From the IMG/VR virus record IMGVR_UViG_3300031673_000076, positions 1-50,122 of that record: a stretch of DNA of 50,122 bases; one strand, 5' to 3'. Origin of the DNA: a virus. A program made the translations under genes and the position numbers. This document shows positions 12,817 through 44,644 of this stretch, piece by piece. The notes under the pieces are model-generated. The model did not search any database. It saw only the letters and a program-made list of their open reading frames with translations, and was not told the DNA's origin. How positions within the stretch are numbered: position 1 is the first letter of the stretch; the number at the start of each line of letters is the position of its first letter.

Positions 12817-13896
12817 TTATGCCCATGTAGTTGCATGGAGTGTGTAAAGGTTTATACAATCATTAACAGAAGGCCATGAGGGAAAAGCATTCGCTTCCCC
12901 AACCGTCCATTCACAGACGGGATTTGTTTCTGAATACTTTTGTATCAGGATATTTTCCTGTTTAGCCAAAGTTGCCTGTTTGGGCGGATTCATTTCCGTT
13001 GCTATCGGGCCGAAATACATATCACCGACAGCCAACTCAGGAATGAATAATACATGACCAGTTACCCATGGTGTAACTGTGCTCTGCGTATTATCTTGAT
13101 TTTCCAGAATAAGAGTCTGGTCAACTAAAATAATTTGTGGCAGACCCATACCTTCAAGCATGGTATTGGCGATTGCAAGTGTAGGTGCCAATCTTACTTT
13201 TGTTCCGCCATAAAGGTATCCGAAACAGTAATTCTGCACTTGTGTCGATGCCTGGAAATATCCCCAGTCAGTATAGTCCATGAGTGCATATTTCAGCTTA
13301 ATACCCCATCCTCTGGCTTCAGTTTGAGCAGTTATAAAGTCAGTGATTGGCGTTGTAGTGCCAACCGCGGCAGTCCATACAACCGCAGCGCAATTTTTGT
13401 TTGCGGATGCCATCTGAGAATCTATATTTGATGTGGTTATAATACCCGCATTGGACGTTGCCGAAAGTCCGATATAACTCTGTGATAATAGACGAAGTGC
13501 AAGAAATTCGAGTCTTGCTTTCACGCCCTCAAAACAGAATTTAACATCGTCAAATACCAGTTTCATGATAGTTTTCTGCTCGGTATTTGCCATCGCTTTC
13601 AAAATGCTGTATTTATTCAAATCGGTCTCACGCATCGGCCTGCTGATCCTAATGGCTGGTATATCTCCTTTCAACGTAGTCACTATCGGACGCCGTTTAA
13701 TTGGAGCACTTGAATTATATGCAACAACATCAGCCATTACTGGCTTGCCTTCCGATCCTACAAGCGTTTCATAATCAAGAAACGGCGTTATTTGTGGAGG
13801 AAAGAAATCAGGCCAGAAATACTGTTTAATACCTCTGTTTGACAAATAGGCTGTCAAATTTTTCTTATTTATCTCACTTAACAATGAGTATTCCAT
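12817..13896 (-). CDS. Major capsid protein (lambda E-like fold)
   Basis: 359 residues. 'KPVMADVVAYNSSAPIKRRP', followed by 'DIPAIRISRPMRETDLNKY', is characteristic of the phage major capsid protein E family. An HK97 fold is expected, with an E-loop in this region. Scaffold and a second head protein lie directly upstream and the connectors directly downstream. A strong ribosome binding site (GGAGGTGAAATC) precedes the ATG. No protease gene is visible, in keeping with a separate scaffold instead of a fused delta domain. Confidence 0.85.
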   Translation of the reverse strand: MEYSLLSEINKKNLTAYLSNRGIKQYFWPDFFPPQITPFLDYETLVGSEGKPVMADVVAYNSSAPIKRRPIVTTLKGDIPAIRISRPMRETDLNKYSILKAMANTEQKTIMKLVFDDVKFCFEGVKARLEFLALRLLSQSYIGLSATSNAGIITTSNIDSQMASANKNCAAVVWTAAVGTTTPITDFITAQTEARGWGIKLKYALMDYTDWGYFQASTQVQNYCFGYLYGGTKVRLAPTLAIANTMLEGMGLPQIILVDQTLILENQDNTQSTVTPWVTGHVLFIPELAVGDMYFGPIATEMNPPKQATLAKQENILIQKYSETNPVCEWTVGEANAFPSWPSVNDCINLYTLHATTWA

Positions 13897-16192: not shown

Positions 16193-16954
16193 TTATCCCT
16201 TCATTTTCCTCACAAAGTCCATGTGGATTCGCTTCAACTCTTCAAATCTCATGAATATGATGTCGGTATACTGGTATCTTGTATCGAGTCCGTACATCTC
16301 GATATTCACCGCCTCAAATCCGATATGTTTAAAATTGCCGAGAATATCCTCAAGTGGAATCACCTCATCAACTATCTGTTGCATCCCGCTGAGTTCCTGT
16401 TTCATGACCACCTGGAATCGTGCATCGGGAATGTTCAGGTAGACGGTTGTGTGATCATGTGAATGTGCCTCCACCGTAGACAAGAATGATATTACTTTAT
16501 CAGGTGGAATATGCTCAAGAACATCAGCCATGACAATAACATCAAACTTCTTACCCAATATAATATCACAATTATCGGCAATCATATAGGTTATGTTTTT
16601 ATGAGCCGAATGCTCTTTCGCAAACTCAATCAACTTAGGGGATATGTCCACCGCCGTAACGACTGCTCCCAAGCGTGCCATGAATACCGATGTGATTCCA
16701 GTACCACAACCCAAATCCAGCACGGTATTCTTGTAACTAATAATCGAACCGAGCTTCTGTTTTATGTGCAAATGTCGGGGATTATCCCGCTTGTGATCAA
16801 CTTTCAGGTGATCCAGGAAGTTATCATAAAATTCTACAATCGGATCATTTGTTACTGGTAGACTTTCTATAGTTCCCCCTTTATTGACTGTTTTTGAACT
16901 GGCTTTGGCTGTTATCTTTCTGTTATATGCTCTTTTTGGTTTTACCGGTGTCAT
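16193..16954 (-). CDS. SAM-dependent methyltransferase (class I)
   Basis: 253 residues. A basic ~25-residue N-terminal extension (KPKRAYNRKITAKASSK) precedes a class I Rossmann methyltransferase: motif I 'VLDLGCGTG' (78-86), acidic motif II 'VTAVDISPKLIEFA', and 'KFDVIVMADVLEHIPPD' (motif IV region). The family resembles UbiG/Methyltransf_11-type enzymes acting on small molecules or sugars. It is clustered with a GT4-like glycosyltransferase in the island between the MuF and scaffold genes, so a role in modifying a glycan on virion or cell surface is plausible but inferred. Confidence 0.85.
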   Translation of the reverse strand: MTPVKPKRAYNRKITAKASSKTVNKGGTIESLPVTNDPIVEFYDNFLDHLKVDHKRDNPRHLHIKQKLGSIISYKNTVLDLGCGTGITSVFMARLGAVVTAVDISPKLIEFAKEHSAHKNITYMIADNCDIILGKKFDVIVMADVLEHIPPDKVISFLSTVEAHSHDHTTVYLNIPDARFQVVMKQELSGMQQIVDEVIPLEDILGNFKHIGFEAVNIEMYGLDTRYQYTDIIFMRFEELKRIHMDFVRKMKG

Positions 16955-17291: not shown

Positions 17292-17519
17292 TTAAAATTG
17301 CAAGTATATTTCAACTCGCTCATACTTTTCAATGATATTAATTAATTCCTGTGCTCCTTCAATATCAGCGCAAACCAATCCCATTAAGAAAGGTATAAAT
17401 TGTTCATCAACAATTCTCGATATTGAAGATACCTCCTCTCCTTTTTGTAATGCCATACACAATCCCTTGGCTAATGATTCACTTTTACTTATTGGTCTCC
17501 ACATTAAAGATGCACTCAT
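17292..17519 (-). CDS. Small hypothetical protein
   Basis: 75 residues (MSASLMWRPISKSESLAKG), helical, with a hydrophobic helix 'FIPFLMGLVCADIEGAQELI' that looks like a soluble packing helix rather than a membrane segment. It overlaps the glycosyltransferase stop (ATGA overlap at 17516-17519), so it is co-translated with it. No family is recognised. Confidence 0.6.
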   Translation of the reverse strand: MSASLMWRPISKSESLAKGLCMALQKGEEVSSISRIVDEQFIPFLMGLVCADIEGAQELINIIEKYERVEIYLQF

Positions 17520-18508
17520 TTCTTTCCCCCCAACCTATCAATAAGTTTTATCAGTTGTTCCATTTGATTCTCCCGTGTCCAGCCCCGCTTTATGATGTAA
17601 TCACGGGTATCATTATTCTCTGATCTCAGAGCTAACACCGTGCCATTCCCCAATACTTTCACATCATAATAGAATAGCCGTTCAGCTTCCTCGATTGAAT
17701 TAAATACCCATCCTGCAGGATACAATTCCTTTGCCCCGTAAAAGTTATGAATAATAGGTTGCAACCCATGTGCAGCCCCCTCCATGATGTTGTACGGATG
17801 CCCCTCGTGGATGCTGGTGCTGAGGATAAACCGCTTGTGCTCGTAGAAAGTGTTCATGTCCTTGACGAATCCATAGAACAGCACATTATCTTCAATGCCA
17901 AGTTCCTTTATGATGTACTTCAGGTAGATTTCAAACCGCTTGTCCTGAAAGGCACCGGCTACGTGAAGTTTCCATTGCTTATCTCTATTAACCAGTCGGC
18001 TCATTATCTGTATAGCCAGTGCCGGCTCTTTCTTGTGATTGATGTTCGCCACGTATGCGATGTTGAATTCATCACCCTTAACCAACTCCACTGATTTTAT
18101 GCTGTCGAGATCGATGCCGTTATACACTATCTTTGTGCATACCTTTTTCTCAAGGTCAGGGATTTGCTCCTTTACTATTGCCCGGATATGGGGTGCCACG
18201 AATACCAAGTAATCGACTACCGACCAGTCCACCTGCTTCGGCATATCTGATAAGGCTTCATAACTGTGCAACCGGATTATGATCTTCTTTTTCTTAGCCT
18301 CATACATCCGGGAAACGATCATAGCGACCTCGTTTGCCCATTCAATCCAGATGATGTCAGCCCATGCAACGGCGCTCTTGATTTCCTGATTCGTTGCCAC
18401 ATAGTACCTTAATATTCTATATTTATCTAATCCCTCAAACTTCTGTATTAAAGGTTCTATAAACGAATCCAATCCACGAGCACAGATAAATGCGAGCTTC
18501 TTCTTCAT
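17516..18508 (-). CDS. GT4-like (group 1) glycosyltransferase
   Basis: 330 residues with GT-B architecture. The N-domain contains 'IIIRLHSYEALSD' and 'DYLVFVAPHIRAIV', then 'KIVYNGIDLDSIK', the usual linker to the nucleotide-sugar domain. The C-domain has 'LHVAGAF', 'VLFYGFVKDMNTFY' and the E-x7-E motif 'EGHPYNIMEG' (Glu235 and Glu243). This is the typical retaining GT4 signature. It lies in one operon with the methyltransferase and small Cys-rich proteins. It may decorate virion proteins or alter host surface glycans; the substrate is unknown. Confidence 0.85.
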   Translation of the reverse strand: MKKKLAFICARGLDSFIEPLIQKFEGLDKYRILRYYVATNQEIKSAVAWADIIWIEWANEVAMIVSRMYEAKKKKIIIRLHSYEALSDMPKQVDWSVVDYLVFVAPHIRAIVKEQIPDLEKKVCTKIVYNGIDLDSIKSVELVKGDEFNIAYVANINHKKEPALAIQIMSRLVNRDKQWKLHVAGAFQDKRFEIYLKYIIKELGIEDNVLFYGFVKDMNTFYEHKRFILSTSIHEGHPYNIMEGAAHGLQPIIHNFYGAKELYPAGWVFNSIEEAERLFYYDVKVLGNGTVLALRSENNDTRDYIIKRGWTRENQMEQLIKLIDRLGGKK

Positions 18509-19436: not shown

Positions 19437-19703
19437 TCACGGTGTTGTCCTGATTTCTTTCAAAGGATTACACTCGGTCAGTTTAGGATTAGTTTTTATA
19501 ACATCAATTTTCAGATGAGCAGAAGTAACATATGCTTTTATTTCATTAGAATCCCATTGCATGCGTTCTTCAATAGTCGGCTCAAATTCTATTGAACCTT
19601 CAAAAATATCATCTGCATTGCCATCAATGAATGAAGTCATTATATGTTTTATTACTTCTCGTTGCTCTTTATATAATATATTGCTCAAATATATTTTGCT
19701 CAT
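19437..19703 (-). CDS. Hypothetical protein
   Basis: 88 residues (MSKIYLSNILYKEQREVIK). It is acidic in the middle ('DGNADDIFEGSIEFEPTIEER') and carries a beta strand 'EIKAYVTSAHLKIDVIK'. It is the first gene of the accessory island after the non-coding stretch at 19704-19883. No family is recognised. Confidence 0.6.
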   Translation of the reverse strand: MSKIYLSNILYKEQREVIKHIMTSFIDGNADDIFEGSIEFEPTIEERMQWDSNEIKAYVTSAHLKIDVIKTNPKLTECNPLKEIRTTP

Positions 19704-19761
19704 GGTTTCCCCTTCTCTATTGGTTCAAATTTTATCCCGTGATCGCCCTTGTAAATTTCTC

Positions 19762-19790
19762 TTGACAAATTTCTTTCCCTAATTTATATT
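19762..19790 (+). promoter_or_regulatory. Near-consensus sigma70-type promoter on the plus strand
   Basis: TTGACA at 19762-19767, a 17-bp spacer and TATATT at 19785-19790. This is the best-matching promoter in the window and it points rightward, against every neighbouring gene. A structured transcript and a terminator follow within 95 bp. Confidence 0.75.
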
Positions 19791-19796
19791 CTCTTT

Positions 19797-19882
19797 CGTG
19801 TGCTTTGCGCACCCCTTGACTTGGTTACAAGTCTTGGTAAACGGCGACCCCGCCAGTTTATTCTGGTGTTTCGCCGTTTTTT
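19797..19882 (+). ncRNA. Candidate small structured RNA (~86 nt)
   Basis: With a start expected near 19797, the transcript would contain three consecutive hairpins: GTGTGC-TTT-GCGCAC (19798-19812), GACTTG-GTTA-CAAGTC (19818-19833) and a terminator stem AAACGGCGA / TCGCCGTTT (19839-19847 with 19871-19879), which also encloses CCAG/CTGG, ending in a T-run. There is no open reading frame of note. It matches no RNA family that I recognise. It lies antisense to the gap between the MuF gene and the accessory island. Confidence 0.65.
19839..19882 (+). terminator. Intrinsic terminator (strong on plus strand, possibly bidirectional)
   Basis: A 9-bp perfect stem (19839-19847 / 19871-19879) with an inner CCAG/CTGG helix is followed by TTTTTT on the plus strand. 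On the minus strand it sits directly after the MuF stop codon and is trailed by TTTACC, so it may also weaken late read-through. Confidence 0.75.
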
Positions 19883-19883
19883 A

Positions 19884-21461
19884 TTATTCTTTCCAATACC
19901 ATTTGCCTTTTCCCTTGACTAATAAATGCTCAATACCTTTATTTTTTGCCTCCCTCAATATTTGATTTATTCTGTCTTTATCCCAATCATCATAATTTAA
20001 TAATATATTTTTTGCTCTTCTTACTGTTCGTTCTTTATAGATACTATAGTTTTCTTTAAGTTTATATTCTGGCAAGTTAAGTTGCCATTCAATATGATCC
20101 TTTGTCATTGCTAATGCTTTTTGTTGCAATTCAGCTTTTTCTATTGCCAGTTTTGCCTCTTTGGCTGGTATTCCAAGTCTATTTCTTAAAACTTCTAACC
20201 ATTCTTTTCTTTTATTCATGGGAATTATCAGCCCCTCTGGGACTTCATACATTTGTAACCAACGGTATCTGCCTTTTGTATCTATGTAATGATGTCTAAC
20301 AAATGAAGGCACGGCGTCTATATTAGAAGGCAATAATGTCTTAGGCAATCTTTCCGAATCTATATCTAAAACATCACTCACAAGATTATTTGAACACCCA
20401 TAAAAATCATTCCAGCCCTGACCTAACCCGCCTTCATTAACATCAATACTACCAACCATATTTGAAATATTCTTTTTTGTAATATTATCTACAGGTGGTA
20501 TTTGAACTATGGCTGGCATCAACTCATTTTGTATTAATTTTAATTCATCAGAGAAATTACCCCTTATCCAATAGGGGGGGGTGGTATAACCAAGCAACTT
20601 CTCCCCGTGCTTCTTGAGGAAGTTTACCATATTCGCTGGCAGTGCCGTTGTAAACTGCCTTTGGTCTATGTTCCCCGTCTTGAGATAATCCACGAAGTCC
20701 TCAGTACTCAAGGTTTCCCAAGTAGCAAAACACAAACAGCAAGGATGCCATCCAACAAATTCAAATCCTTTGGGGTATGTCCCTTTCAAATCATCACAAA
20801 TATCTTCTTGTGGATGACTTGCTGATAACTGGACAGTTACCCCCGTTACAAATGGCAGTTGACTATTCTGAGTATAATCGGACATCCGGAACGCCATATT
20901 AGTCTCGGTTGCCGCAAGTCTTACTGACTGATACTCAATGTTCTTGCCCTTAAGAAGAGTCCCCTTGTACTGGATTGGCTTCCCCGCAAGATACCGTGTC
21001 ATCTCTTTCGACAGTACCACCGCCGACTTGCCCTCAGCGATCCCCGTTGCAAGGAATGTCTCTACTTCGCCCTTTGCCCCGTTTCCAAGCGCCCATACAC
21101 GCTCACTCAGGTTCATGCCGTTCTCGGTGCGGTTAAGGAAGGAATTGAGCGCCGGTATATTCGGACTCCGGAAACTCTGATATAAATCATTTGATATTTT
21201 GACATTCTGGAAGTACCCGCTGATTGCTTTGTTGTTCATTTCATTCGCAAGCATCCAATGGCGCCGGATCCCCTGCTCGATGTTGGCTTTCAATCCTTCA
21301 CGCAGGTTCTCTATATTTCCCTCAAGAACCGAAGCAAACCGCTTGCCCTTGACGGTGGTGAACCGTTTGGCAATATCCTTACTGGCATTGTCAAGTATCC
21401 TGCCAACCTGCTTATTGCGCTTGGCTATGTCGATTATGTTCTGTTTCTCAAATGAATTCAT
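19884..21461 (-). CDS. MuF/SPP1 gp7-like minor head protein with C-terminal extension
   Basis: 525 residues. Residues 1-180 are helical (KGKRFASVLEGNIENLREG). Residues ~190-290 carry the head-morphogenesis core: 'AATETNMAFRMSDY', then 'QEDICDDLKGTYP', 'WHPCCLCFATW'. Known proteins of this type bind the portal and are injected or retained in the head. The C-terminal ~220 residues ('VRHHYIDTKGRYRWLQMYEVP', 'RVRRAKNIL'-like helices) are not part of the core. They are encoded by clearly AT-richer DNA (19884 to about 20570), as if added later. MuF proteins often carry toxin or nuclease tails; no such domain can be assigned here. Confidence 0.8.
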   Translation of the reverse strand: MNSFEKQNIIDIAKRNKQVGRILDNASKDIAKRFTTVKGKRFASVLEGNIENLREGLKANIEQGIRRHWMLANEMNNKAISGYFQNVKISNDLYQSFRSPNIPALNSFLNRTENGMNLSERVWALGNGAKGEVETFLATGIAEGKSAVVLSKEMTRYLAGKPIQYKGTLLKGKNIEYQSVRLAATETNMAFRMSDYTQNSQLPFVTGVTVQLSASHPQEDICDDLKGTYPKGFEFVGWHPCCLCFATWETLSTEDFVDYLKTGNIDQRQFTTALPANMVNFLKKHGEKLLGYTTPPYWIRGNFSDELKLIQNELMPAIVQIPPVDNITKKNISNMVGSIDVNEGGLGQGWNDFYGCSNNLVSDVLDIDSERLPKTLLPSNIDAVPSFVRHHYIDTKGRYRWLQMYEVPEGLIIPMNKRKEWLEVLRNRLGIPAKEAKLAIEKAELQQKALAMTKDHIEWQLNLPEYKLKENYSIYKERTVRRAKNILLNYDDWDKDRINQILREAKNKGIEHLLVKGKGKWYWKE

Positions 21462-21976: not shown

Positions 21977-22246
21977 TCAAACAAATTCATCAGGATCCCC
22001 GTATATCAAATCAAGCAATCTATTCATCTTCTCATTCCCTTGAAACATCGCCCTGAACGGCAGACTTGCCCTATGGATTTCAATTAATTTTACAGCCAGA
22101 TCGTTCAGGCTCTGCACATTGACTATATACTTGCCTTCTTCTGTCTTTATGGCAGAAATGGAACCCGTATCACAGCATTTTTGAATAAAAACAGGGTTCA
22201 GTCTTGTCAATTCTGAGGCTTCATCAATGTTCAAAAACGGTTTCAT
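21977..22246 (-). CDS. Small excisionase-like HTH protein in head module
   Basis: 89 residues. The N-terminus 'FLNIDEASELTRLNPVFIQKCCDTGSISAIKTEEGKYIVN' has the order of a MerR/excisionase-type winged helix: helix-turn-helix, then a beta wing with the 'I-x-x-x-x-[GN]' pattern. The C-terminus is helical and acidic. It overlaps the portal stop by 4 bp. A DNA-binding role is plausible but not demonstrated. Confidence 0.6.
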   Translation of the reverse strand: MKPFLNIDEASELTRLNPVFIQKCCDTGSISAIKTEEGKYIVNVQSLNDLAVKLIEIHRASLPFRAMFQGNEKMNRLLDLIYGDPDEFV

Positions 22247-23628
22247 ATATTTACCGACTCCGCAAACGACTTCAAAGCTCCTGATTCCTTTTCTAACTCT
22301 TCCAATTCTTTAGTGGCATCCTGAATCAGCGGATTACTATCAACTGCCGATTTCTGACTCATTATCGGTTCACCTCCCCGTGCCAATGACAGGCTGCGAA
22401 TAAGAGCCTCCAAATCCTCCGGAAGCACATCATTAAATACCACATCAATATCGGCTTCATCGAGTGATTTCGCTTGCCCCTTATCTATAACTCCGAGCAC
22501 GGACTTCATCACGCTTATTCTGCGCTCCATGCCCTCGCCGAATATCTCCTGCTTATCTTTCGCCTTGAACAGAGCATCTGAGAACATCAATCGCAAGGCT
22601 ATCCCGGATACTGCCGACATGCCTTTCACATTAGAGAATGACAGGTCAGGCGTGTTGGTCATGCCGTAGATAATATCTTTCAGAGTCTCGATTTCAAGTT
22701 TGATCGATTCCGGCGCCTGATCCCATGATACATATCTGACACCGCCCGGATATGTAACTTCACCTGTAATGGAGTTCTCTTCTTTTTTAACCCTGACTAC
22801 CTTGCCCACATCCTCTTTTTTTGGCATATTGTCGACTTCGCCCTTAATTTCAGTAATCGGCGATCCATTGTAATCATTTGCGTCACCGAAATTGCTGATT
22901 AGATATTCAAGCCTGTTTATCTCCGTTTTCACATCCTCCCATTCCGGATCATCCTGTTCATAATAAACAACTGGTATTTTCCCGAATAAATTGGGTGTTG
23001 TTTTCTGTGTCCAGCCAGCCGTACCTTTTATTGCAGTGATTATTTGGGAGGCTGTGTAGATATTTGCATGGTCAACGGGTTTTCCCTTCTCATCAGTCAG
23101 CTTGTATGTAACGGTGAAAGCATCCATATCACCGTATTCATCATAATGCGGGTAAAACAGATACGATTCCCGCTTGCTCAGTAATGTTACACGTGCTTTC
23201 GCTACACCGTCCACAGCTTTAACGACTGACCATAATTCAGCAGCTTTCGTTTCCACAAACAGGTCACGGGCAAGACGTTTATCGAAGTAGTACAACTTGC
23301 ACTTTTTCCATAAATCCTGGATCAATTTAAAAACTTCCTCTTTGTCATTATTCAATACCAGCGACACAGGCTCACCGAATAAGAACGTGACCGCCGAATT
23401 CACGATACGTTTCTGGAATGGAATGGTCTCGGAGGTATGCTTAACAACTCTTGCGTTCTTTCCAGTCCCCACAGTTTTGGGCAACCGTGCTGTATCGTGT
23501 AGAATTTCATGATCGCCCATGTATGCTTTGCGATTATCGTCAATGGCTTTGTCTTTTTCCAGTGGATCAAGACATAATGCTGCCAATACTTTGTTAAAAT
23601 CCTTCTCTGCTAAAATATCATTAATCAT
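22243..23628 (-). CDS. Portal protein (SPP1 gp6-like)
   Basis: 461 residues. 'KHTSETIPFQKRIVNSAVTFLFGEPVSLVL' followed by the clip/wing segments and 'RYVSWDQAPESIKLEIETLK' match the Phage_prot_Gp6/SPP1 portal family. The C-terminal helices include 'GMSAVSGIALRLMFSDALFKAKDK'. The ring at the capsid vertex works with the terminase genes directly upstream. RBS AAAGGAGATTGAC precedes ATG 23628. Length is typical (430-500 residues). Confidence 0.9.
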   Translation of the reverse strand: MINDILAEKDFNKVLAALCLDPLEKDKAIDDNRKAYMGDHEILHDTARLPKTVGTGKNARVVKHTSETIPFQKRIVNSAVTFLFGEPVSLVLNNDKEEVFKLIQDLWKKCKLYYFDKRLARDLFVETKAAELWSVVKAVDGVAKARVTLLSKRESYLFYPHYDEYGDMDAFTVTYKLTDEKGKPVDHANIYTASQIITAIKGTAGWTQKTTPNLFGKIPVVYYEQDDPEWEDVKTEINRLEYLISNFGDANDYNGSPITEIKGEVDNMPKKEDVGKVVRVKKEENSITGEVTYPGGVRYVSWDQAPESIKLEIETLKDIIYGMTNTPDLSFSNVKGMSAVSGIALRLMFSDALFKAKDKQEIFGEGMERRISVMKSVLGVIDKGQAKSLDEADIDVVFNDVLPEDLEALIRSLSLARGGEPIMSQKSAVDSNPLIQDATKELEELEKESGALKSFAESVNI

Positions 23629-23934: not shown

Positions 23935-25191
23935 TTACACTGGCAATCCCAGTGCATTCCAATCAAATTTACTTTCCTCTGATTCGGGTCTAAACGATAT
24001 GCCGCTCAAAGCATACCTTAACTGGTCTATATAATGGTTATTCCTGTCAACCGGTGTGTTCATAACCTCGCCCTGCTTATTCTTTTGCCACTGATATAAC
24101 TGGAACTCATTGATGGCATTCTGGCAATCCCGGTGAATGATGACCTCATACTGTAAAATGAATTGTATCCCGTGATTTACCGACCCCTTGCCTGCCCATG
24201 CTGCCATAGAATTCAATCCATATCCTCTGAGTTCCTGTATATCTTTCGGCGCTGAGGGATCACAGCGAATCGGTTCGTTTCCGATAACCGGTTTGATCCG
24301 TTCCGCAATCACATCATTTGTCAACCCGTATTCATACATTTCGTGAGTGATATACAGTTTCTTCTCCTTTATTGCGCACCTCCCAAATGCTGTCGGATCG
24401 TTCGTAAAGCCAAAATCCAGCCCGTTATAATAAGTACCGAAGGCATCCCGCAATCCCGTGAGGTTCTCCACCCTCCAGTTCGTGAATATGAGATGTCCGA
24501 GAACCCCCCAGTTGCCGAGAGTATAGACGTTGTAATAGTATTCATTCTTTTCTGATTCAAGAAAGTACGAGTCTTCAGGAGCCAGGAATCGATTGTCTTT
24601 GTATGTAGTTTTGAGGATCGTGAGTTCGGGGTCTCTGTATTCCATATCCGTATCGTGGAAAGATTTGAAAAATTCTTTGTGTATCCAGTGAGTACGCATG
24701 ATAGGGTTGAATGAGAATGAAATACGTTTCGGAACTTTTGACTGTCCCCTGAGCCGTTTAGTGAGTTGCCGGTAGTCATCTTCACTGGTCTCAGTCGCTT
24801 CCTCAATCCAGATGTCGGTAATGACATCTTTGTTGGCTGGCTTAATGCCTTTGATTTTTTGTACATCGTCAAGTCCCGCAAATAAAGCCTGTCGGTTGTT
24901 TGCCCGTGGGCAGGTTATCGTCATTTCCGATTTGTTCACTTTGAAGTAATCCCATAGTTCCCATTCACTGATTACTGAGTTCATTTCATTAAATGTCGTG
25001 GTTCGGTGCGTATTCGCTGTGTTCCTTATTATCAGATAATTACGCTCACCTTGCAGTAAATCGGATATGGCACGTTGTGCAAGGAAATGACTCTTGCCCG
25101 AAGATGCACCACCAAAGAATATCTGGGTTCGGGTCTGATCTTCAACATAGGGTTTGAACGCATCATTTATCCGCCACTGCTTTATTATCAT
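23935..25191 (-). CDS. terL: Terminase large subunit
   Basis: 418 residues. The ATPase domain has Walker A 'GGASSGKS' (27-34) and Walker B 'DIWIEEA' (126-132). The RNase H-like nuclease has 'GLDFGFTNDP' (257-266, Asp259) and a C-terminal 'NNHYIDQLRYAL' with Asp389. This layout is of the Terminase_3/XtmB type. It packages DNA into the prohead through the portal. The start overlaps the small subunit by 29 bp. Length is normal. Confidence 0.95.
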   Translation of the reverse strand: MIIKQWRINDAFKPYVEDQTRTQIFFGGASSGKSHFLAQRAISDLLQGERNYLIIRNTANTHRTTTFNEMNSVISEWELWDYFKVNKSEMTITCPRANNRQALFAGLDDVQKIKGIKPANKDVITDIWIEEATETSEDDYRQLTKRLRGQSKVPKRISFSFNPIMRTHWIHKEFFKSFHDTDMEYRDPELTILKTTYKDNRFLAPEDSYFLESEKNEYYYNVYTLGNWGVLGHLIFTNWRVENLTGLRDAFGTYYNGLDFGFTNDPTAFGRCAIKEKKLYITHEMYEYGLTNDVIAERIKPVIGNEPIRCDPSAPKDIQELRGYGLNSMAAWAGKGSVNHGIQFILQYEVIIHRDCQNAINEFQLYQWQKNKQGEVMNTPVDRNNHYIDQLRYALSGISFRPESEESKFDWNALGLPV

Positions 25192-31195: not shown

Positions 31196-31227
31196 TTAAT
31201 ACCTCAAATTAAATTGCTAATTTCTAA

Positions 31228-31382
31228 GCAGGCGAGCAGGATTCGAACCTGCAATAGGACTTTTTAAGTGAACCTTTTTAGTACCTCAGCTTTGTACTTC
31301 AGCTTCTTGGTATCCTTGCGTGGGATCACGACCACGTTAATTCAAACTTTCGTTAGCGTCTACCAGTTTCGCCACCGCCTGC
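31228..31382 (-). tRNA. tRNA-Leu-like gene with ~70-nt extra sequence (intron-containing, decayed or novel)
   Basis: Minus-strand features: a 5' acceptor GCAGGCG paired with 3' CGCCTGC; a D-arm 'TGGCGAAACTGGTAGACGC' with the canonical GG and class II leucine look; a perfect T-arm GCAGG-TTCGAAT-CCTGC. Total length is 155 nt instead of about 85-90. The extra segment contains a CGTGG/CCACG hairpin, a 13-base near-direct repeat (AGCTGAAGTAC / AGCTGAGGTAC) and a CTTAAAA string that would be a Leu(UAA) anticodon loop, but no clean anticodon stem. CCA is not encoded. Confidence 0.6.
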
Positions 31383-38904: not shown

Positions 38905-39117
38905 CTATTGAAGTGGTACATTATTATCATTACCATTATCCTCAATGGATTCAGCAGCCTGGTCAAAGAAATCACTAACCTTGCCCTTGAAAACTATTTG
39001 ATTAAGTATCGGATTGGATTTGACAACAATTTCAGTCAATGTTTTATTTGCTTTCTCATTGTCTTTATTTGTCTTACAGATGGGACAGTCTACGTGATAA
39101 CCAAAATGATGAGGCAT
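38905..39117 (-). CDS. Small zinc-knuckle protein
   Basis: 70 residues. 'HFGYHVDCPICKTNKDNEKAN' gives C-x2-C plus two nearby His. The rest is acidic and helical ('DFFDQAAESIEDNGNDNN'). AAGGAG precedes ATG 39117, which overlaps the upstream stop (TGACATG). Function unknown. Confidence 0.6.
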   Translation of the reverse strand: MPHHFGYHVDCPICKTNKDNEKANKTLTEIVVKSNPILNQIVFKGKVSDFFDQAAESIEDNGNDNNVPLQ

Positions 39118-39118
39118 G

Positions 39119-39334
39119 TCATATCTCCTTATTATTGTCAGAGGGGAGCACCCGACCAGTATGCTCCCCTCCTATATCCAGCCGGAGATGGGAATGAAAC
39201 GCACTGTGTGATACGTCTTTTGCACCAACGGCGGATAATGCCATGTCCAGATTGAATTGGCAGATTCTCAGATTTTCATTGATTATTTTTGCTTTCTCAA
39301 TACATTTGTCAAGTTCGGAGAGGTGGTCGGTCAT
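39119..39334 (-). CDS. Small helical protein
   Basis: 71 residues, helical ('LSELDKCIEKAKIINENLRI'), with a C-terminal 'FHSHLRLDIGGEHTG' stretch. Part of the string of tiny genes after the early promoter. No family is recognised. Confidence 0.55.
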   Translation of the reverse strand: MTDHLSELDKCIEKAKIINENLRICQFNLDMALSAVGAKDVSHSAFHSHLRLDIGGEHTGRVLPSDNNKEI

Positions 39335-44493: not shown

Positions 44494-44559
44494 GGGGAAT
44501 CGTATAATCATTAAAAGATTTTCAGAATTATTTATACGTGTGAAAGGAATTACACGAAT

Positions 44560-44601
44560 AAAAAACCCTGCAAGGTGAAGAGGAAAAAACCTTACAGGGT
44601 T
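44560..44601 (-). terminator. Terminator of the late operon
   Basis: Stem AACCCTG-x-AAGGT (44564-44576 with 44589-44601, one bulge pair) with a loop of ~12 bases. On the minus strand it is followed by TTTTTTATT. It lies after the last lysis-region gene (stop at 44645) and before the next leftward promoter. A second smaller hairpin GACAC/GTGTC (44605-44626) precedes it. Confidence 0.85.
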
Positions 44602-44644
44602 GCTGACACACCGAGTGGGGAGTGTCGTTAAATTATACCAGATT

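Follow-up and report, generated by a model that had tools for sequence, protein, structure and literature searches.

A candidate small RNA gene convergent with muf in the head operon of a temperate phage

Does the head operon of a temperate phage contain a small RNA gene that points against it, and what might such an RNA do? The locus that raises this question lies in IMG/VR record IMGVR_UViG_3300031673_000076, a sequence of 50,122 bases from a temperate siphovirus-like phage, the whole of which is referred to here as the window. Between the head morphogenesis gene muf and an open reading frame (ORF) of 88 amino acids (aa), both on the minus strand, is an intergenic gap of 180 nt (19704-19883) that is mostly occupied by a predicted plus-strand small RNA (Table 1). 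With its own promoter, appropriate +1 spacing, a stable fold and a terminator hairpin followed by a T-run, the unit is a well-supported candidate for a self-contained small RNA gene.

A folded unit with its own promoter and terminator

The original prediction described a promoter followed at the +1 distance by three hairpins and a T-run, and both the coordinates and the elements hold. The predicted +1 is G19798, seven bases past the -10 box. This is also the opening base of hairpin 1, so that almost no 5' single strand remains. The segment 19790-19885 has a folding energy of -40.8 kcal/mol (z = -7.55), which none of 200 shuffled sequences equals, and each of the three hairpins individually beats its own shuffles. 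Among approximately 20,000 segments of 90 nt taken from both strands, the small RNA region has the most stable fold, and it keeps this position after correction for GC content (-5.2 standard deviations).

The promoter matches the consensus at 11 of 12 positions and is the top-scoring site in a scan of the 10-30 kb region. The earlier description of it as the best promoter in the window is correct for that region, but window-wide it ties at 11/12 with two further sites of poorer spacing or hexamers, giving three such sites in total. As about 1.9 promoter sites of 11/12 are expected per window in a first-order simulation, the promoter alone is not above chance. Simulation places the complete unit in a different light. 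In 0.75% of 400 simulated windows a promoter precedes a strong terminator, and no simulated fold below -32.8 kcal/mol occurs downstream of a promoter with a match of at least 10/12. Because the 400 windows yield no comparable folded unit, the combination of promoter and RNA exceeds chance. An AAATTT repeat found in a palindrome scan overlaps the -35 box and may be an operator, a call that is weak because AT-rich DNA leaves chance possible. No operator common to this promoter and the repressor region was found.

Since promoter and terminator are both strong matches, the possibility arises that they alone matter, through antisense transcriptional interference or as an insulator, and that the RNA itself is inert. 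Such an arrangement has a precedent in Staphylococcus aureus prophages, where antisense promoters in noncontiguous operons serve lysis-lysogeny switching (PMC11087260). However, it would leave unexplained the two additional shuffle-significant hairpins ahead of the terminator, and we regard it as unlikely.

Strand and coding potential

Several features assign the unit to the plus strand, as originally proposed. The only two stem pairs that are not Watson-Crick pairs, one of them in hairpin 1, are G-U when read on the plus strand and would become C-A on the other. The T-run is found where a plus-strand transcript would end, and the hairpin and T-run can function as a terminator only in the plus direction. 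Together with the +1 spacing, the stability of the fold and the shuffling results, these features support a small RNA gene that is read from the plus strand and has a promoter and terminator of its own. The minus strand folds more weakly than the plus strand (-35.4 kcal/mol, z -6.9), yet well enough that the structure could instead serve the minus-strand late mRNA, processing or stabilizing it between muf and the 88-aa gene, with the plus-strand signals being incidental. Both wobble pairs and the T-run suit the plus strand only, and a strong promoter stands at exactly the +1 distance, making this explanation improbable.

The original prediction also held that the RNA contains no ORF. Frames of at least 20 aa that end in a stop codon are absent from the small RNA, but two GTG frames (starting at 19798 and 19800) stay open across the terminator. 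These frames have neither a stop codon nor an upstream ribosome site, and we judged them not to be coding. The most fitting interpretation of the unit is a non-coding RNA of about 83-87 nt, a size that bears out the ~86 nt first proposed.

Searches for homologues

Rfam searches at gathering and relaxed thresholds gave no real match, in agreement with the earlier statement that no known RNA family was recognized. No DNA resembling the small RNA was found among phages, and the sole match in plasmid records is a chance-level stretch of 34 bases from Agrobacterium. We collected 84 related loci by terminase searches. Neither blastn nor a covariance model built from the single sequence detected the small RNA in any of them, and the model also found no match across 16 whole records. 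The closest relatives (L002, L004, L030 and L003) have terminase, portal and MuF proteins at 48-72% identity to those of the window, and in these the small RNA was found neither behind muf nor elsewhere in the fetched DNA. Because the covariance model rests on one sequence, distant homologues may escape it.

IMG/VR was additionally scanned with four exact seeds, comprising hairpin 1 (6 loci), hairpin 2 (20 loci), part of hairpin 3 (at least 119 loci) and the hairpin-3 apex (4 loci). No examined seed context extends into the small RNA, the contexts being those of all loci for three of the seeds and, for the part of hairpin 3, those near a T-run among the matches listed. Scanning 398 genomes of one arbitrarily chosen phylum with the covariance model gave two matches (E 0.01-0.02 per genome). 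We rejected these as homologues, because about eight would be expected by chance and the alignments either break the structure or fit the terminator hairpin only. With no homologue in related loci, seed contexts or genomes, the small RNA is an orphan; within the data searched, the candidate gene is private to one phage.

A possible cis-antisense RNA of the late operon

All neighbouring genes are on the minus strand, confirming that the promoter opposes every flanking gene. The 3' end of the small RNA abuts the muf stop codon; the small RNA gene and muf thus converge, and the RNA is antisense to the late mRNA. By position, it is perfectly complementary to the late-mRNA spacer that separates muf from the 88-aa gene, the start codon of which lies 94 nt from the small RNA start. 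Pairing between the small RNA and the mRNA is computed to be highly favourable (-175 kcal/mol). What the DNA itself shows is a promoter, a fold and a terminator, together with the strand, the convergence with muf and the perfect complementarity. We tentatively prefer to view the locus as an orphan small RNA gene that acts as a cis-antisense element in the late (head) operon, in the manner of OOP and STnc6030, a preference that rests on these two RNAs being the nearest precedents.

In a cis-antisense mechanism, a promoter that lacks evident late control would allow host sigma-70 polymerase to transcribe the RNA while the late operon is silent, in the lysogen or early in infection. The product would be a compact, nuclease-resistant RNA of 83-87 nt. 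It would pair with the late-mRNA spacer between muf and the 88-aa gene, leading RNase III to cut there, so that the muf message would be left with an exposed 3' end and the downstream genes would be uncoupled. Leaky or incoming late transcripts could thereby be blunted in the lysogen, whereas strong convergent late transcription would override the small RNA promoter. That the small RNA is transcribed, with this timing, pairs with the mRNA, directs RNase III to it and benefits the phage is our inference.

The OOP RNA of phage lambda is transcribed from its own promoter, ends at a hairpin terminator and shares 52 bases with the 3' end of cII; cleavage has been proposed at sites outside cII (PMC5869508). 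Like OOP (pO-oop-tO), the window RNA is short, phage-encoded and provided with a promoter and intrinsic terminator of its own; it converges on the 3' end of a gene in the opposite operon and is complementary to an intergenic stretch. OOP differs in lying in the early control region, in the extent of its overlap with cII and in having a LexA site, whereas the window RNA lies in the late head operon, overlaps a stop codon at most and is unrelated in sequence. STnc6030 of the Salmonella prophage BTP1 is a prophage RNA that is antisense to structural genes and excludes superinfecting phage (PMC7067206). It resembles the window RNA in being antisense to structural genes that a temperate phage expresses late. 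However, STnc6030 is 786 nt long, covers coding sequence and is not a compact hairpin RNA, and its superinfection exclusion is demonstrated, whereas the window RNA is a prediction from sequence. FinP and the plasmid copy-number antisense RNAs are, like the window RNA, about 80 nt long and all-hairpin, with their own promoter on the strand opposite the target. They differ in having larger loops tuned for kissing and in targeting a start-site leader; comparison with their sequences was through Rfam only.

Several observations weigh against the cis-antisense reading. The small RNA covers the spacer only, with no start site, and overlaps muf coding sequence by its stop codon at most, whereas an OOP-like antisense RNA would be expected to overlap a coding end or a leader. 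Its loops, of 3, 4 and 6 nt, are AU-rich and poorly suited to kissing an equally structured target. No homologue was found, the RNA being absent from the 84 related loci, and the closest relatives manage without it. Of the antisense control of head genes that was first proposed, the geometry is retained (convergence with muf and complementarity to the late mRNA), but what is covered is a spacer and not a head-gene frame.

The lack of conservation across the related loci and the within-chance promoter would also fit a coincidental alignment of signals, or non-functional remnants in decay. The promoter spacing, three hairpins and T-run are together far beyond shuffles, and we consider this explanation very improbable.

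A trans-acting alternative

A close rival to the cis-antisense reading, which we consider possible if somewhat doubtful, is that the gene encodes a trans-acting moron small RNA (sRNA). Expressed in the lysogen as cargo, it would act on host RNA or protein, as an anti-sRNA, as a protein decoy or bound to a ProQ/FinO-type protein or Hfq, and its convergent placement would spare late transcription from disturbance. In Escherichia coli O157 prophages, Tree et al. (2014) described convergent sRNA genes, including those for anti-sRNAs such as AgvB, located between moron coding sequences and phage genes (PMC4104026). ProQ favours structured RNAs, and part of the ProQ-associated sRNAs are prophage-encoded (PMC5391140). 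The region from muf to the scaffold gene is variable cargo in the relatives, and the unit is self-contained and missing from relatives, as a moron would be.

Against a trans-acting role, the RNA has hardly any free seed, its longest unpaired stretches being the UUUAUU loop and the tail. An AgvB-like RNA would present a single-stranded seed of at least ~7 nt, whereas the longest internal loop here is 6 nt and contains A and U only. Complementarity to the small RNA elsewhere in the phage is limited to chance-level matches. The E. coli O157 RNAs (AgvB, AsxR and the EcOnc RNAs) resemble the window RNA in being encoded by small genes that are convergent with late transcription and lie beside accessory genes, but they have single-stranded seeds, bind Hfq and are situated behind PR', whereas the window RNA is nearly all paired and lies in the head operon. 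A further mode of action known for RNA is that of the RNA anti-CRISPRs (Racr), which mimic the host CRISPR repeat (PMC10651486). Near-complete pairing speaks against a trans seed and small AU-rich loops speak against cis kissing; neither is decisive. The small RNA probably belongs to a known general kind, that of an antisense or lysogen-expressed regulator.

The MuF extension and the 88-aa ORF

The MuF proteins of the closest relatives have ~320 residues, and alignment indicates that the window MuF carries 215 more (residues about 310-525). Searches for relatives of this C-terminal extension found none. It has sub-threshold Pfam matches only, including CdiA_C at E 0.07, and the AlphaFold model of the MuF protein (pLDDT 38) is too poor for a structure search. 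Members of the MuF polymorphic toxin family often have a putative immunity gene in the form of a small ORF that follows muf (PMC5576092). Likewise, the muf gene of the window lies near and after the portal gene and is followed by a small ORF, and the variable MuF C-terminal domains of the window and its relatives fit the pattern of this family. By contrast, the described modules contain no RNA, and toxicity of the window MuF is only putative. From this arrangement, the MuF extension may be regarded as a putative toxin and the 88-aa ORF as a putative immunity gene.

The small RNA might then be part of a MuF toxin module, restraining or neutralizing the toxin-like C-terminal domain or controlling the putative immunity gene. 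The extension, the small RNA and the 88-aa ORF lie side by side, and none has a counterpart in the relatives. However, the extension is at best a putative toxin, given the sub-threshold Pfam matches and the poor structural model, and MuF modules are not known to include an RNA element. We consider a role of this kind highly unlikely.

Differing MuF C-terminal domains are also present in the related phages L032, L033, L035, L036, L038-L040, L042, L043, L045 and L047. Most of these bear a JAB-like motif (THNHPSGSSFSGDDL) and that of L047 a metalloprotease-like HEYGH, labels that reflect motif reading and not a domain search. In L029 (16271-17295), MuF has an in-frame insert of ~340 residues that is intein-like by appearance and begins YDSQTDVYTNEGWKRF.

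Other features of the window

The window also encodes a LexA-like repressor and an integrase, both on the plus strand. Within the head-gene cluster are genes for a methyltransferase and a glycosyltransferase (16193-16954 and 17516-18508, minus strand) that are common to several related phages.

Table 1 Features of the small RNA locus and neighbouring genes
Feature	Coordinates	Strand	Remarks
Sigma-70-type promoter TTGACA-17-TATATT	19762-19790	+	Hexamers 19762-19767 and 19785-19790, 17-bp spacer
AAATTT-8-AAATTT repeat, possible operator (weak)	19753-19772		Palindrome scan; overlaps -35 box
Predicted small RNA, about 83-87 nt	19798-19884	+	Whole unit -40.5 kcal/mol, 58/87 bases paired
Hairpin 1, GUGUGC-UUU-GCGCAC	19798-19812	+	Fold -6.2 kcal/mol, z -2.6
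Hairpin 2, CC-UU-GACUUG-GUUA-CAAGUC-UU-GG	19814-19837	+	Fold -10.9 kcal/mol, z -3.9
Hairpin 3, 9-bp outer and 6-bp inner stem, loop UUUAUU; intrinsic terminator stem	19839-19879	+	Fold -22.2 kcal/mol, z -6.6
T6 run of intrinsic terminator	19877-19882	+	From sequence; terminator-like site also listed in 10-30 kb scan
Capsid protein	12817-13896	-	
88-aa ORF downstream of muf	19437-19703	-	No family; no homologue above noise
muf / SPP1 gp7-like head morphogenesis gene, 525 aa	19884-21461	-	PHROG 1657, 7625 and 115
MuF C-terminal extension, 215 aa	19884-20537	-	No homologue
SPP1-type portal	22243-23628	-	
Terminase	23935-25191	-	

Further structured elements were noted in the window and in one related locus. 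The 90-nt segment that ranks second in fold stability across the window (39113-39202, minus strand, -37.7 kcal/mol) lies at the 3' end of an ORF (39119-39334), and the fetched relatives hold no similar sequence above chance. Two consecutive terminator-like hairpins with T-runs are found at 44513-44620 on the minus strand; no upstream promoter match was found for them. A tRNA-like element (31227-31382, minus strand) has an acceptor, a D-arm and a T-arm with ~80 additional bases mid-sequence. ARAGORN calls it (81 nt, Phe-aaa) if introns are permitted but not otherwise, no similar phage DNA was found, and the candidate explanations are an interrupted tRNA, a tRNA-like structure or an attachment-site remnant. 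Another promoter-terminator unit is present in L104 (7480-7567, terminase strand), where TTGACA-17-TATACT is followed 74 nt on by a strong terminator, with TAGTATAGTATAGTATA repeats.

Implications

To our knowledge, small RNAs have rarely been described within phage structural operons. If it is not transcribed, the unit described here would be an example of a convincing-looking RNA gene private to one phage. If it is transcribed, it would offer a compact, testable case of antisense late-gene control or of prophage RNA cargo, placed where a head protein with a toxin-like extension meets a putative immunity gene. Should the RNA prove to be part of a MuF module, it would be the first RNA element for the MuF toxin family, and may silence or neutralize a head-borne toxin or govern the immunity gene in the lysogen.
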